Below, piece by piece: positions 2,687 to 40,245 of a stretch of DNA of 46,020 bases. How positions within the stretch are numbered: the stretch's first letter is position 1; every line of letters starts with the position of its first letter. The notes beneath the pieces are model-generated. The model was not told the origin of the DNA, ran no database searches, and was given only the letters and a program-made list of their open reading frames with translations. Both the position numbers and the translations under genes were made by a program. Source of the DNA: Nocardia araoensis NBRC 100135 (GTDB lineage: Bacteria > Actinomycetota > Actinomycetes > Mycobacteriales > Mycobacteriaceae). Location of the stretch: NCBI RefSeq assembly GCF_000308435.1, contig NZ_BAFR01000014.1, forward strand, positions 1-46,020, read 5' to 3'.

Positions 2687-3628
2687 ATGGGAGTAGGTCG
2701 CGCGTTCGGTGTGCTGTCCGCACCCGGCGGTTCCGCGCTGCTCGGCGGCCCCGCTTGCGCCGACGCGCCATCGTTTTGCCCAACGTGTGTGGCAACTCCC
2801 GCTCCGCACTATGACACCGGCGATTCCTGGCTTCCACTGACCGTGCTGGGACAGCCCTCGGAGGTCGGTGCGGTGCAGGCCCGGCCGACCGCCGGGACGG
2901 CATCGGCCGCAGCGGATTCCGCGGCCGCCGGTTCGCGCTCACCGGAATGGGCACGGCGGCGTCGGGGTCCTTGCTGTGGTCGGCGGGTGCTGCGGGTGAC
3001 GGGTACGAAACTGCCCCCGAACCAGGCGCGTCCGGACCGGCCGTTGTCGGCGGGCCCGCCCCGGCGACCCGACGCCGCGAGTACCGGCTCTACTGTCCTC
3101 AGTTCGAATTCGGGTTCGGTCGGGCTGGCGATGGAGCCCACCGAGTTGGGTACTGGCTCCGTCGTCTTGGGCGGCGGCACCGCTTCCGCGGGGGTCGGCC
3201 CGACAGGCAACGGGCCGGTGGCGCTCGGGTCGGTCGCAACGGGTTCCGCCGCAGCGGGTTCGGCTGCGGCGGGTTCGGCTGCGGCGGGTTCGGTCGCGGC
3301 GGGTTCGGCTGCGGCGGGTTCGGTCGCGGCGGGTTCGGCTGCGGCGGGTTCGGCTGCCGTGGATTCGGCTGCCGTGGATTCGGCCACAGGAGCTCGGCTG
3401 CGGTGGGTTCCGCAGCTTCGAGTTCGGCGGCCGTCAGGTCCGGGAATCCACTGCCTGCTCGAGGGGGCGCGAACCTGCTCATCGCGCTCGGCGCGGTACG
3501 GATCGTGGTGGATCTGGGGGCGCGCGGGTGCTGCTACCGCGCCGGATCCGCTCGTTGCATCGGATCATGGTCGGTCGTTCACCCGAGATGGTCGCGCACG
3601 CAGAGAGCCGGTTCTCCACGAAGTATGA
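2687..3628 (+). CDS. Doubtful low-complexity ORF with GSAAA pentapeptide repeats
   Basis: An open frame of 313 codons beginning at an ATG preceded by GAGGGGAAGG (2669-2678), with a TTTAGTAT -10-like element near 2593. It encodes an Ala/Gly/Ser-rich product with about eight GSAAA/GSVAA pentapeptides at 3240-3360. No domain, signal peptide or family is recognisable. The opposite strand is open over 2809-3387 with AAEPA repeats and shares the same wobble positions, so composition does not settle which strand, if either, is coding. After about 3390 the protein looks out of frame. A more natural-looking stretch (MVGRSPEMVAHAESRF...) appears in another plus frame at 3528-3797. It may be a decayed gene or non-coding. 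Confidence 0.22.
   Translation: MGVGRAFGVLSAPGGSALLGGPACADAPSFCPTCVATPAPHYDTGDSWLPLTVLGQPSEVGAVQARPTAGTASAAADSAAAGSRSPEWARRRRGPCCGRRVLRVTGTKLPPNQARPDRPLSAGPPRRPDAASTGSTVLSSNSGSVGLAMEPTELGTGSVVLGGGTASAGVGPTGNGPVALGSVATGSAAAGSAAAGSAAAGSVAAGSAAAGSVAAGSAAAGSAAVDSAAVDSATGARLRWVPQLRVRRPSGPGIHCLLEGARTCSSRSARYGSWWIWGRAGAATAPDPLVASDHGRSFTRDGRARREPVLHEV
3240..3390. repeat. 15-bp tandem repeat array (GCGGCGGGTTCGGCT type)
   Basis: About nine consecutive imperfect copies of a 15-bp unit. Copies alternate between a GGCTGC and a GGTCGC variant, and the last two are changed to GCCGTGGATTCGGCT. The period is a multiple of three, so all frames stay open and give pentapeptide repeats (GSAAA or GFGCG on plus, AAEPA on minus). 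It looks like slippage-generated low-complexity DNA. Confidence 0.8.
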
Positions 3629-36146: not shown

Positions 36147-37396
36147 TGCCGACGCGGCGGATGCGCCGCACCGCCGTCGTCGCGGCGGGGCTGGCGGTGG
36201 CGCTCGGCGTCACCGGCTGTCAGTGGGACGGATTGAATTCGCTGCCGATGCCAGGCACCGAGGGCACCGGGCCCGGCTCCTACGAGGTGCGTATCCAGAT
36301 GCCCAACGTCACCACGCTGACCCGGAATTCACCGGTGCGGGTGCACGACGTGGCGGTCGGCACCGTCTCGAAGATCGAGGTGGAGGACTGGCACGCACTG
36401 GTCACCGTCACGTTGAACCCGGACGTGCACCTGCCCGCGAACGCCGTCGCCAAGATCGGGCAGACCAGTTTGCTCGGCTCCAACCATCTCGAGCTCGCCG
36501 AGCCGACGGATCAGCCTCCCGAAGGCCAGCTGAAGGCGGGTGACGTCATCCCGCTGGCGCGTGCGGGAACGTATCCGACCACCGAGCAGGTGCTGTCCTC
36601 GCTGTCGGTGGTGCTCAACGGCGGTGGCGTCGCGCAGTTGGAAACCATCACCCACGAGCTCAACGCCGCGCTCACCGGGCGGGAGGAAGCCATCAGGGAC
36701 CTGCTGCCGCAGCTGAACGAGTTGACCACGAACCTGGACCGCCAGACCGGCGACATCATCGCCGCGATGAGCGGGCTGGACCGCCTCGGCGGTCAGCTCG
36801 CCGAGCAGCGCGACGTGGTAGCGACCGCCATCGAGCAGATCCATCCGGCGTTGACCGTGCTTGCCGATCGCCGCGCGAACATCACCAGGGCGATCACCGC
36901 GCTGGGCGAGCTGAGCGACGTCGTGCGGCGCATCGTCGCGGCCAGCGGCGAGGACCTGAAGGCCAACCTGCGCAGCCTCGTGCCGGTGCTGAAGTCGCTG
37001 TCGGACACCGGGAGCGACCTGACCGAAGCGCTGAAGATCCTGGCCACCTTCCCGTTCCCGATGAAGAACCTGGACCACGCGATCAAGGGTGACTACCTCA
37101 ATCTGTTCATGACCGTGGACATCACCGGCAAGCGGCTGGATTCGAACTTCCTCACCGGAACCCCGCTGGGCGGGCGGTTCGGCGGCGTGGAAGGCGCGCT
37201 GGGTAGCTTCGCGCCGGGCACGGCCGCACAGAACGGCGACCCGGCCACGGGTCCGTTGCAGGCGCCGCCGCCCGCGGCGAGCCAGCCCGCCCCGACCATC
37301 CCGGGACTCCCGCCGATCCCGGGCATTCCCGCCATTCCCGGGTTGACCGTGCCCATGCCGGGCAACACCGCGCCGCAAGGGGGTCCGGGACAGTGA
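36143..37396 (+). CDS. mce4E: Mce4E lipoprotein (LprN)
   Basis: A 417-residue Mce lipoprotein. A signal peptide ends in the lipobox LGVTGC with Cys26, as in all MceE (Lpr) proteins, so this subunit is lipid-anchored. MCE domain at about 40-125 (VTTLTRNSPVRVHDVAVGTVSK, TSLLGSNHLELAEPT), helical needle region, then a Pro/Ala/Gly-rich tail with repeated PGLPPIPGIPAIPGL. The ATG at 36143 overlaps the mce4D stop behind AGGAGGAGG; a second ATG follows at 36146. Confidence 0.94.
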   Translation: MMPTRRMRRTAVVAAGLAVALGVTGCQWDGLNSLPMPGTEGTGPGSYEVRIQMPNVTTLTRNSPVRVHDVAVGTVSKIEVEDWHALVTVTLNPDVHLPANAVAKIGQTSLLGSNHLELAEPTDQPPEGQLKAGDVIPLARAGTYPTTEQVLSSLSVVLNGGGVAQLETITHELNAALTGREEAIRDLLPQLNELTTNLDRQTGDIIAAMSGLDRLGGQLAEQRDVVATAIEQIHPALTVLADRRANITRAITALGELSDVVRRIVAASGEDLKANLRSLVPVLKSLSDTGSDLTEALKILATFPFPMKNLDHAIKGDYLNLFMTVDITGKRLDSNFLTGTPLGGRFGGVEGALGSFAPGTAAQNGDPATGPLQAPPPAASQPAPTIPGLPPIPGIPAIPGLTVPMPGNTAPQGGPGQ

Positions 37397-38817
37397 AGCT
37401 CACCCGGTTCGTCCGTACCCAGCTGATCATCTTCTCCGTGCTGACGGTGATCGGCCTGGTCGTCATGGGCGGCACCTACGTCAAACTGCCCGCGATGTTC
37501 GGCATCGGGCGCTACGAGGTCACCGTGAAGCTGGCCGCGACCGGTGGCCTCTACCCGACGGCCAACGTCGCCTATCGCGGCACGAACGTCGGTGTGGTGA
37601 AGGAAGTCCGGTTGACGCCGGTCGGCGTGGACGCGAAGCTCTCGATCGCCAGCGACTACAAGATCCCCTCCGACGTCGACGCGTGGGTGCGCAGCGTCTC
37701 CGCGGTCGGCGAGCAATACGTGGACCTGGTGCCCGCGCAGAACCGCACGGGCGGAAACCTGCGCGACGGCAGCGTCATCCCGGTGGAGCGCACCAAGCTG
37801 CCGCAAGACGTCGGCGCGCTGCTCGACCAGGCCGACCGGCTGCTGTCGAGTGTCGCGGACACCCGGCTGAAACAGGTCATCGACGAGGCGTTCCTCGCGT
37901 TCAACGGCGCGGGACCGGACCTGCAACGGTTCATCGACTCCGCATCGCTGCTGGTGCAGGAAGCGCAGGCCAACGCGGAACCGACGAAACAACTGCTCGA
38001 CAAGATCGGGCCGCTGCTGGACACCCAGACCGACTCCGACGCCGCGATCCGTTCCTGGACGGCCGATCTCGCCGCGGTCACCGACCAACTGCGCGGGCAC
38101 GACCCCGCGCTGCGCGGCATCCTGCGCGACGGCCCGTCCTCGATGCAGCGGGTGACCAACCTGTTCGAGGACCTGCGCCCGACGCTGCCGCTGCTGCTGT
38201 CGAATCTGGTCAGTGTCGGTCAGGTCGCCGTCACGTATCACGCGGGGCTGGAGCAGATCCTGGTGGTCTATCCGCCGCTGGTCGCCGCGCTGCTGACCGC
38301 CGTCCGCGGTCCACTCGAATACGGCGCGCTGGTCGACTTCATGGCGCTGGTCAACGACCCGCCCGCGTGCACAACCGGCTTCCTGCCGCCCGACCAGCGG
38401 CGCTCGCCCAGCGAACTCGACACCCCCGACACGCCGCCGGGCCTGTACTGCAAGGTGCCGCAAGACGCCCCGGAGGCGGTGCGCGGCATCCGCAACACGC
38501 CGTGCGCCGAGGTGCCCGGTGTGCGCGCCCCGACGCCGGAACTGTGCCGCACGGGGTACGTTCCGATCGGCGACAATCCGCCGTTCGGGCCGCCGCATCC
38601 GGTGGCGCCCGCCGCGGCGCCCGCGGGTGAACCTCCGGTCGTCGCACCGGCGAGTTACGGCGGCGGCACACCAGCCGCGGCGCGGTCGTACGACCCGGCG
38701 ACGGGCGTCTACATCGGCCCCGACGGGCGTACCTACCGACAGGGCGATATCGGACCGAGCGGTTCGGGCACGGTACCGTCGAGCTGGCAGGCGATGCTCG
38801 AGGAGCAGCAACAATGA
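37393..38817 (+). CDS. mce4F: Mce4F
   Basis: A 474-residue Mce protein: anchor at about 10-30, MCE domain (ATGGLYPTANVAYRGTNVGVVKE, VSAVGEQYVDLVPAQN), helical region and a long C-terminal extension. The extension carries paired cysteines (YCKVPQ, NTPCAEV, ELCRTGY) and a YDPATGVYIGPDGRTY motif typical of MceF proteins. The GTG at 37393 overlaps the mce4E stop, and the stop overlaps mas4A by four bases. Confidence 0.94.
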   Translation: MKLTRFVRTQLIIFSVLTVIGLVVMGGTYVKLPAMFGIGRYEVTVKLAATGGLYPTANVAYRGTNVGVVKEVRLTPVGVDAKLSIASDYKIPSDVDAWVRSVSAVGEQYVDLVPAQNRTGGNLRDGSVIPVERTKLPQDVGALLDQADRLLSSVADTRLKQVIDEAFLAFNGAGPDLQRFIDSASLLVQEAQANAEPTKQLLDKIGPLLDTQTDSDAAIRSWTADLAAVTDQLRGHDPALRGILRDGPSSMQRVTNLFEDLRPTLPLLLSNLVSVGQVAVTYHAGLEQILVVYPPLVAALLTAVRGPLEYGALVDFMALVNDPPACTTGFLPPDQRRSPSELDTPDTPPGLYCKVPQDAPEAVRGIRNTPCAEVPGVRAPTPELCRTGYVPIGDNPPFGPPHPVAPAAAPAGEPPVVAPASYGGGTPAAARSYDPATGVYIGPDGRTYRQGDIGPSGSGTVPSSWQAMLEEQQQ

Positions 38818-39611
38818 GTGAGAGCAACGGAGAAGGTCACCGCACCCGACGGCGTGCGGTGCGCTCGGCCGGGCCGCCGGTCGAGGAGAACGCGACCGGT
38901 GGCGGCGTGCAGAGCGTGGTTGCGAACGCTTCCGCCCCCGCGCCCGAAGTCGGCGTCGGCGAGCCGAGTTCGGTCGCGGCCGAACCGAAGGCCTCGTCCG
39001 CCTCGACCGACCAGCAACCGGCCACGGACGAGCCGAACGCCGACGCGCCGAAAGTCTCCGTCCCGAAAGCCGACGCCGAGAAGTCCTCCGAGGCGACACC
39101 GGCCGAGCCCGCCGAGAGCGAGCGGCGCGGGGTCCCGCGCATTCTCGCCGCGGCCGCCGCGGCCCTGCTGGTCGTCGCTCTCGTGGCCGGTGCGGTCGTG
39201 TCGGTGTTCGCGATGCACGCGGCGCACGAACGCGACGAGCGCCGTGCCGAATACGTGGACACCGCCAAGCAGGCGATCGTCAATCTGACCACCATCCGCG
39301 CCGACACGGCCAAGCAGGACATCGACCGGATCCTCGCGCTGGCCTCGGGCGAATTCAAGACCGAGTTCGACGGCCGGGTCGACCCCTTCACCAGCATCGT
39401 GCAGCAGGCCAAAGTGGTTTCCAGCGGCGAGATCGTCGAGGCCGCGCTGGAAAGCGACGACGATCGCTCCGGACGCGTACTTGTCGCCGCCAAGCAGACG
39501 CTGACCAACGCGGGTCAGGCCGAGCCGCAGACCAGGTACTACCGGTTCCGGGTCACCGTGTCGCGCGGGGATTCGGGGCTGACCGTCTCCAACGTGGAGT
39601 TCGTGGCATGA
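38814..39611 (+). CDS. mas4A: Mas4A, Mce-associated membrane protein (Rv3493c-like)
   Basis: A 265-residue Mce-associated protein. A long disordered Ala/Pro/Glu-rich N-terminus (1-105) is followed by one membrane helix at about 108-134. A periplasmic alpha+beta domain comes next (TAKQAIVNLTTIRADTAKQDIDRIL through RYYRFRVTVSRGDSG), with the NTF2-like look of Mas/VirB8-type proteins. Such proteins stabilise Mce complexes. The ATG overlaps the mce4F stop. The stop overlaps the mini-ORF at 39608. Confidence 0.88.
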   Translation: MSESNGEGHRTRRRAVRSAGPPVEENATGGGVQSVVANASAPAPEVGVGEPSSVAAEPKASSASTDQQPATDEPNADAPKVSVPKADAEKSSEATPAEPAESERRGVPRILAAAAAALLVVALVAGAVVSVFAMHAAHERDERRAEYVDTAKQAIVNLTTIRADTAKQDIDRILALASGEFKTEFDGRVDPFTSIVQQAKVVSSGEIVEAALESDDDRSGRVLVAAKQTLTNAGQAEPQTRYYRFRVTVSRGDSGLTVSNVEFVA

Positions 39612-39742
39612 ACGGTCAGGCCCGGAGGCGGCAGCGCAGCGTGACCACGGAGGGCCCCGTTCATGCCGGAGTCGGATACGGCATGAACGGTCAGGCCCGG
39701 AGGCGGCAGCGCAGCGTGACCACGGAGGGCCCCGTTCATGCC
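39605..39742. repeat. Two tandem 75-bp palindromic units between mas4A and mas4B
   Basis: Two copies with a period of 75 bp. Each carries inverted ends GGCATGAACGG and CCGTTCATGCC (39605-39667; 39680-39742) and an inner GGCCC/GGGCC pair, giving a long imperfect stem. The copies are identical over about 60 bp. The spacer after each differs (GTCGGATAC against GAGGACACA). Each end carries an ATG, so both strands read MNG... from it. Confidence 0.92.
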
Positions 39743-39760
39743 GGAGAGGACACAGCATGA
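39608..39760 (+). CDS. 50-codon mini-ORF made of two repeated units, bridging mas4A and mas4B
   Basis: The palindromic repeat is open in the frame set by the ATG at 39608, which overlaps the mas4A stop. It ends in a TGA (39758-39760) overlapping the mas4B ATG. The predicted product is two near-identical 25-residue units, each starting MNGQARRRQRSVTTEG, very basic in the first half. The exact multiple of three and ATGA at both ends preserve ribosome hand-over from mas4A to mas4B. Whether the peptide is made is unknown. It resembles nothing I know in other mce operons. Confidence 0.45.
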   Translation: MNGQARRRQRSVTTEGPVHAGVGYGMNGQARRRQRSVTTEGPVHAGEDTA

Positions 39761-40245
39761 ACGGAATTCGAGCCAAGATCCTGCTCGCGCTGCTCGGTGT
39801 CGTGGTCGCGGCGGCCGCGGTCGTCGGCGGCGTGAACGGCTACCGCTACTGGGACGACCGCCAGGCCGAGCAGTCGCGCAAGGACGCGGTCGCGACGGCG
39901 GGGCGCACCGTCGAGGCCATGTTCACCTACAACCCGCAGACCGTGGACACCGAACTGCGCAAGTCCGCCGACAACCTCAGCGGCGACTTCCGTACCGACT
40001 ACCTGACGCTGATCGACAAGCAGATCGCGCCCGGCGCCAAGGAGAAGCAGCTCACCGTCAGCGCTACCACGCAGGCCGCAGGCGTCATCTCCGCCGACCG
40101 CTCGCACGCACAAGTCCTGCTTTTCCTCAATCAGGTGATGACGAGCAAGGACACCCCGCAGGGCACCACGACCGGCAGCCGGGTCCGCGTCTCCCTGACG
40201 AAATCCGATTCGCGCTGGCTGGTGTCGGCGGTAACCCCGGTCTGA
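39757..40245 (+). CDS. mas4B: Mas4B, Mce-associated membrane protein (Rv3492c-like)
   Basis: A 162-residue protein with one N-terminal membrane helix (about 6-26: AKILLALLGVVVAAAAVVGGV) and a periplasmic NTF2-like domain (YWDDRQAEQSRKDAVATAGRTVEAMFTYNP, LFLNQVMTSKDTPQGTT). It matches Rv3492c, the last gene of the mycobacterial mce4 operon. Its ATG overlaps the repeat mini-ORF stop. It ends 15 bp from the converging kinase gene with no hairpin between. Confidence 0.88.
   Translation: MNGIRAKILLALLGVVVAAAAVVGGVNGYRYWDDRQAEQSRKDAVATAGRTVEAMFTYNPQTVDTELRKSADNLSGDFRTDYLTLIDKQIAPGAKEKQLTVSATTQAAGVISADRSHAQVLLFLNQVMTSKDTPQGTTTGSRVRVSLTKSDSRWLVSAVTPV

Follow-up and report, generated by a model that had tools for sequence, protein, structure and literature searches.

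A MIRU-like dispersed repeat that probably bridges a four-base stop/start overlap between two operon genes in Nocardia araoensis

A repeat at an operon junction

In Nocardia araoensis NBRC 100135, the junction between two small genes, labeled mas4A and mas4B, is filled by two tandem units of a repeat that is dispersed over the genus, at a place where relatives have a bare stop/start overlap of four bases. The explanation that we favor with reasonable confidence, judging from sequence and comparison, is that the repeat is MIRU-like and that the mini-ORF running through both units hands ribosomes from mas4A on to mas4B with little harm. MIRU stands for mycobacterial interspersed repetitive units, reportedly described by Supply et al. 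in 1997. The window, i.e., the whole stretch of DNA that was analyzed, comprises 46,020 nucleotides.

The proposed working mechanism has three steps. A ribosome finishing mas4A would restart at once on the overlapping ATG, would unwind the hairpin while translating the unit or units, and would then restart on mas4B at the last ATGA, where the purine-rich tail of the repeat may help. Selection would keep those copies that have an open frame and an in-phase length, leading either to an ATGA hand-off or to an in-frame fusion, whatever the peptide. Both the translational coupling at the junction and the mobility of the family are what we infer from the arrangement and distribution of the copies.

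The junction locus

All features of the locus are on the forward strand. In the list of open reading frames, mas4A spans positions 38814-39611 (265 codons, with the stop codon TGA at 39609-39611) and mas4B spans 39757-40245 (162 codons). These names and the mce4 operon had been proposed in an earlier, sequence-only reading of this DNA. The MCE family membership of the genes upstream is supported by Pfam and NCBIfam profile searches, but mce4 and mas4A/mas4B are names given by position only, because neither small protein scores above the Pfam or NCBIfam cut-off. The upstream MCE genes are also joined by 4-nt overlaps, at 37393-37396 and 38814-38817 of the same list.

Unit 1 of the repeat runs from 39608 to 39682 (75 nt, ATG to ATG) and unit 2 from 39683 to 39756, where it ends with GGAGAGGACACAGC ahead of the ATG of mas4B. 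Of the two 75-bp copies described earlier, the first has exactly that length, while the second measures 74 nt from ATG to ATG. Over 67 nt the units are identical (39605-39671 versus 39680-39746, with 75 nt from start to start). The insert was also thought to be an exact multiple of a codon. With 149 nt (75 + 74) it is not; the mini-ORF including its stop codon (39608-39760, 153 nt) is. This mini-ORF is open for 50 codons across both units and ends with TGA, and it has, as had been noticed, an ATGA overlap at each end: at 39608-39611 the mas4A stop overlaps its start, and at 39757-39760 its own stop overlaps the start of mas4B. Both units share one frame, from which mas4B is displaced by the usual 4-nt overlap. 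The purine-rich sequence GGAGAGGA (39743-39750), which resembles a Shine–Dalgarno sequence, lies 6 nt 5′ of the mas4B ATG.

A covarying hairpin with a near-invariant core

Each unit contains a hairpin, hairpin 1 at 39605-39667 (supported by fold and covariation) and hairpin 2, with the same sequence, at 39680-39742 (supported by fold and covariance model). The tandem arrangement with inverted ends and an inner stem is thus as first read. The ends, GGCATGAACGG/CCGTTCATGCC, pair perfectly and form the outer stem; the inner stem is GGCCC/GGGCC, and a conserved core makes up the loop. One unit folds at −37 kcal/mol with an 11-bp outer and a 5-bp inner stem, and a fold as good was obtained in 0 of 200 shuffles. 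In this fold the start ATG of the unit sits within the stem, which agrees with the earlier description. Hairpin 1 matches the covariance model R1 of the family with 83.7 bits. In the family, the hairpin takes up approximately 61-65 nt of a unit of 74 or 75 nt that includes the purine-rich tail. When the whole junction of 226 nt is folded, the identical units compete with each other, and the minimum energy structure has the unit's own hairpin in unit 2 only and not in unit 1.

The structure is conserved by compensation rather than by sequence in its arms. In an alignment that was fitted to the model structure, and therefore leans toward it, compensated changes were present in all 15 stem pairs (10 outer, 5 inner) among 134 distinct copies, which represent the best 150 of 167 matches of a model search that took 100 loci. 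Over the whole structure, the same 134 copies gave 219 compensated cells versus 51.8 in shuffles, and 89.5% of the cells were paired versus at most 47.9% with slid partners. RNAalifold, applied to the family alignment, predicted 16 pairs, 13 of which had changed on both sides. The covarying outer arms measure 10-11 nt, and the core between the arms is close to invariant in sequence. Two small hairpins can be drawn within the core, but they gain no support from covariation, which was found in one of the four pairs of the first (74.6% of cells paired) and in none of the three pairs of the second.

A riboswitch or other known RNA was rejected, as Rfam matched none of 17 loci at E ≤ 1. At E ≤ 5, the region around the junction gave a single chance-level match (E 3), located downstream of the insert, and none within it.

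A dispersed family in the genus Nocardia

The sequence-only reading had supposed that a palindrome had spread by copying while staying in phase at ATGA junctions, an idea that would have failed if the core occurred nowhere else. The comparison supports it: further contigs of its own genome carry the unit (best BLAST E value 6e-24), and the model R1, built from 16 copies of this genome, detects 20 full copies in it (E ≤ 3.4e-7). R1 matches all 24 genomes of the same genus (own genome included) versus none of 16 genomes from other families. In a draw of 201 genomes from the family, 2 of the 31 genera were matched, the genus of the window and one other; this draw used stricter filters, does not list every negative and says nothing on whether all members of the genus are positive. 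The near-complete genome of a relative, G023, carries 65 copies at 40 sites, 24 of them single and 16 tandem. Tandem spacings are 75 or 74 nt in 80 of 100 cases.

Further counts were made on a set of 148 arrays with 248 copies, each with at least 320 nt of flanking sequence, arrays with shorter flanks being dropped. It draws on the own genome, the 40 sites of G023 and the named mas4 loci, together with the top-scoring loci of G004, G019 and G021 (no more than 30 from each search) and the top hits in other members of the genus. A junction shared by several species stands in it as separate rows, and the frame scans omitted ten overlapping loci.

Two settings recur among the copies, and the genes in them are labeled from their translations. 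The first consists of stop/start overlaps within operons, e.g., between the genes of a ClpP-type protease pair or between an acyl-CoA dehydrogenase gene and a neighbor of the enoyl-CoA hydratase type. The second consists of leaders ahead of groEL-, typA- and rpoZ-like genes. The groEL-like leader has one copy in the own genome (L022:3038-3098) and three in tandem in G023 (L121:2009-2223), without an ATGA mini-ORF. With respect to the downstream gene, 107 of the 148 arrays are co-oriented, 25 are opposed and 16 could not be called. Coupling is therefore not the sole setting of the family, since many arrays are in leaders without a mini-ORF and 25 of 148 are opposed to the downstream gene.

Empty, filled and decayed junctions in relatives

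Aligning the mas4A-mas4B junction across species, a comparison that the sequence-only reading had proposed, shows that the overlap at the end of mas4A, GAGTTCGT..ATGA, is kept in all 54 named loci (50 Nocardia, 4 Rhodococcus). Neither a copy nor a scar is present in 44 of them, and the mas4B frame starts from that ATG. The plainest empty case is Nocardia xishanensis, where 24 bases across the join are identical to the joined flanks of the window. One unit is found in N. abscessus NBRC 100374, two units in N. abscessus BJ06-0146 and N. sp. CY41, three in N. asiatica, and diverged copies in N. veterana and N. harenae. Decayed states occur as well. N. exalbida, N. arthritidis and N. gamkensis retain a scar of 18 nt, fused in frame to mas4B, and N. 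niwae has a remnant with a 21-codon frame that still ends in the mas4B ATGA.

In a tree of 14 rows (13 of the 54 named loci plus the window), array, remnant and empty states are interleaved, and N. beijingensis, the sister of the window, has no unit. After ATGAACGG, the N. beijingensis locus (L066:2491-2521) carries 6 additional bases, which could be the footprint of an excision. The number of tandem copies probably changes through ordinary slippage or recombination.

A second junction, in a clpP-like gene pair (labeled by reading), was compared as well. By eye, 7 of 16 loci of the genus have a bare ATGA/GTGA overlap, while the own genome has one copy, G004 three and G007 a partial one. The remaining six of the 16 loci are spaced otherwise. 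Four copies are present at this junction in G023.

Phase and reading frame

Of the 148 arrays, 93 start with ATGA or GTGA, and 50 of these are located at the stop codon of an upstream coding frame, for which the criteria were 80 or more open codons and a G+C signal at third codon positions. A coding start follows at 39 of the 50, referred to as two-sided sites. By script, the mini-ORF ends exactly in the next ATGA/GTGA at 24 of the 39, fuses in frame with the next gene at 8 and stops early at 7. Three of these seven still hand off, two (L063 and L069) at the ATGA of the next unit and one (L141) at an ATGA with a 643-codon frame; by reading, four of the 39 sites are out of phase (L057, L095, L116 and L178). 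A motif resembling the Shine–Dalgarno sequence (AGGA, GGAG or GAGG) lies 5′ of the downstream start at 23 of the 39 sites, a count given without a background rate.

The count was also made over individual copies. Of the 176 copies starting with ATGA/GTGA, 120 have their first in-frame stop codon in an ATGA/GTGA overlap, versus 34 of the 82 others, and a stop inside the element occurs in 13 of 176 versus 15 of 82. The core itself is read in frame class 0, 1 or 2 at 20, 26 and 4 of the 50 upstream-coupled sites, respectively. A stop codon within the first 18 codons is present in the used frame at 2 of the 50 sites versus 53 of 100 off-frame readings (Fisher p 3e-10), where it should be considered that such site and copy counts are not independent tests, because copies share descent and several sites are one junction in several genomes. 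The stops of L095 and L116 fall after codon 18 and thus beyond this count.

One loop base may illustrate the constraint on the frame. When this base is T it creates TAG, which is the case in 2 of 60 copies starting with ATGA/GTGA where this triplet is in frame versus 36 of 113 where it is not (8 of the 258 copies were not counted as they lack the loop motif). In the other classes this base is freely variable, while the in-frame class has 58 C, 2 T and no A or G. Since A and G would make no stop either, part of this contrast is explained by descent of subfamilies. Of the spacings within arrays, 45 of 52 in coupled arrays are a multiple of three versus 30 of 48 in other arrays (p 0.01), which is no more than suggestive of selection on spacing.

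Altogether, it looks as if phase rather than peptide is under constraint: three frames are used for the core, and still no stop interrupts the first 18 codons of the coupling frame at 48 of 50 sites. These patterns in the sequence point to selection on the passage of ribosomes and not on the product.

Mobility and alternative readings

Several observations bear on how the repeat may move. The arm bases after ATGA match the start of the downstream gene in 114 of 234 letters versus a mean of 97.4 in shuffled pairings; a match as high was obtained in 4 of 5000 shuffles, and in 20 of 5000 when the mas4 sites were omitted. The right-hand ATGA is mostly preceded by AGC and the left-hand one by GGC, with exceptions. 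Despite the ATGA at both ends, no target duplication of fixed length was found. A search for the Y1 (REP/RAYT) transposase, PF01797, matched none of five genomes of the genus and 5 of 14 control genomes. Separately, an 81-nt stray piece on contig C203 of the own genome (L023:2957-3037) is 93% identical to window positions 39545-39625. It comprises the last 67 nt of mas4A, continues into the first part of the unit and includes the first 21 nt of the hairpin, as if the left end had been copied together with its upstream flank.

A broader version of the favored explanation can be formulated, which we regard as tentative and rather doubtful. The family would be a mobile repeat whose selected product is the passage of ribosomes, with a structure-constrained core that can be read in any frame. 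Its arms would adopt the start-codon sequence of the target and rebuild the complement, making a phase-matched bridge, and in operons throughout Nocardia the tandem copy number (0-6) would work like a rheostat on the downstream gene.

Alternatively, the unit could be a non-autonomous transposon (MITE) or a REP-type palindrome that is moved by a transposase, with ATGA as a mere target and no role for translation. Terminal inverted repeats, dozens of dispersed copies, the match between arm bases and downstream gene start and the stray fragment joining the mas4A end to a unit start all suit this alternative. It is nevertheless unlikely: the Y1 family is unmatched in the five genomes, a fixed target duplication is not seen, and phase is kept at most two-sided sites.

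Another possibility is that the hairpin is the functional part, as a structured RNA or a protein-binding element (a leader regulator, or a hairpin in mRNA processing or stability), and that the open mini-ORF is a by-product of high G+C content. The near-invariant core within covarying arms would be expected from such an element, as would the many copies in 5′ leaders that are co-oriented with the next gene and lack a mini-ORF. However, neither the 17 loci nor the insert matched an Rfam family, and at 48 of 50 upstream-coupled sites no stop falls within the first 18 codons of the coupling frame while the other frames often have stops. The loop base avoids an in-frame stop, which an RNA-only element would not need, and tandem copies with patchy presence at one junction suit a repeat better. 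An RNA function of this kind is distinctly unlikely as the explanation.

The mini-ORF could also encode a functional small basic peptide, as had been suggested at first. Its translation includes MNGQARRRQRSVTTEGPVHAG and the open 50-codon frame does contain basic residues, but a peptide function is very improbable and was rejected because sites differ in the frame used for the core, with all three frames represented and the resulting peptides unrelated; in addition, the peptide has no match in Pfam, and no copy is present at the junction in 44 of 54 named loci. An assembly artefact or simple local duplication, which the draft state of the assembly (351 contigs) and the identity of the two units over 67 nt might suggest, is hardly credible, as named strains that were sequenced separately have 2- and 3-unit arrays at this junction and many arrays are located on a 7.36 Mb contig of G023.

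Comparison with known repeats

MIRUs generally have the same orientation as the adjacent genes. A recent review describes them as repeats of many mycobacteria that seem to be mobile and insert at start codons, with an internal ORF coupled at a spacing of −4, and insertion likely has minimal impact on the gene (PMC12548453). A MIRU measures 40-100 bp, and 41 loci are present in H37Rv; species without the repeats have short junctions of a few bp (PMC2734929). MIRUs of 77 bp between senX3 and regX3 are stated to exist only in Mycobacterium leprae and the tuberculosis complex (PMC4213456).

The Nocardia family resembles MIRUs in several respects. The unit is short (a 61-nt core in a unit of 74 or 75 nt) and present at tens of loci, as in G023 and in the own genome. 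It is found in tandem with polymorphic copy number, the mas4 junctions of related species and strains having 0, 1, 2 or 3 units. In operons it is placed where a gene starts, and a 4-nt overlap joins its internal ORF to the gene, exactly so at 24 of the 39 two-sided sites and as a fusion at 8, although this does not apply to the leader-type copies. Lastly, empty junctions in relatives lacking the repeat measure a few bp. In contrast to MIRUs, the Nocardia family has a documented covarying hairpin with a fixed core, three reading frames and many leader copies without an ORF. Because it shares these working features, we call the family MIRU-like, a likeness that refers to these features. The junction element that the sequence-only reading had pointed out is therefore real, but "a distinct kind" was too strong a term, as start-codon insertion and −4 coupling have been described for MIRUs (PMC12548453). 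Among the matches listed in a literature search, which covers titles and abstract openings with subscription papers mostly outside, no description of a Nocardia repeat like this unit was found.

REP and BIME elements are dispersed palindromes that are mostly present between genes and often clustered. The Nocardia copies are likewise dispersed and often clustered palindromes. A REP is a palindrome of 20-40 bp (PMC3733652). The earlier label of a REP-like palindrome does not fit, given the longer hairpin and unit of the Nocardia repeat and the absence of a Y1/RAYT transposase match in the five genomes; the Nocardia unit moreover occupies stop/start overlaps and has an open frame. With MITEs it shares inverted ends, many copies and the lack of coding capacity for its own mobility. 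It differs from them in that the arms vary by site yet stay complementary; no fixed target duplication was identified. Rickettsia palindromic elements are palindromic repeats that are tolerated in frame within coding sequences. The 8 of 39 two-sided sites with in-frame fusion to the next gene are similar, whereas the usual coupled place in Nocardia is between genes and not inside one.

Significance and a further repeat in the window

MIRUs underlie the typing of tuberculosis strains. Their exact function was still called not well understood in a 2009 paper (PMC2734929). A second family with the insertion logic of MIRUs, for which empty, single, multiple and decayed junction states are available in close species, makes the coupling hypothesis directly testable in laboratory hosts. 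The repeat would additionally offer genus-wide polymorphic loci for the typing of Nocardia. It also serves as a warning that annotated start sites and short ORFs at operon junctions of Nocardia can stem from a repeat. Elsewhere in the window, positions 3226-3428 hold an unrelated tandem array with approximately 12.7 copies of the 15-nt unit CGGGTTCGGCCGCGG.
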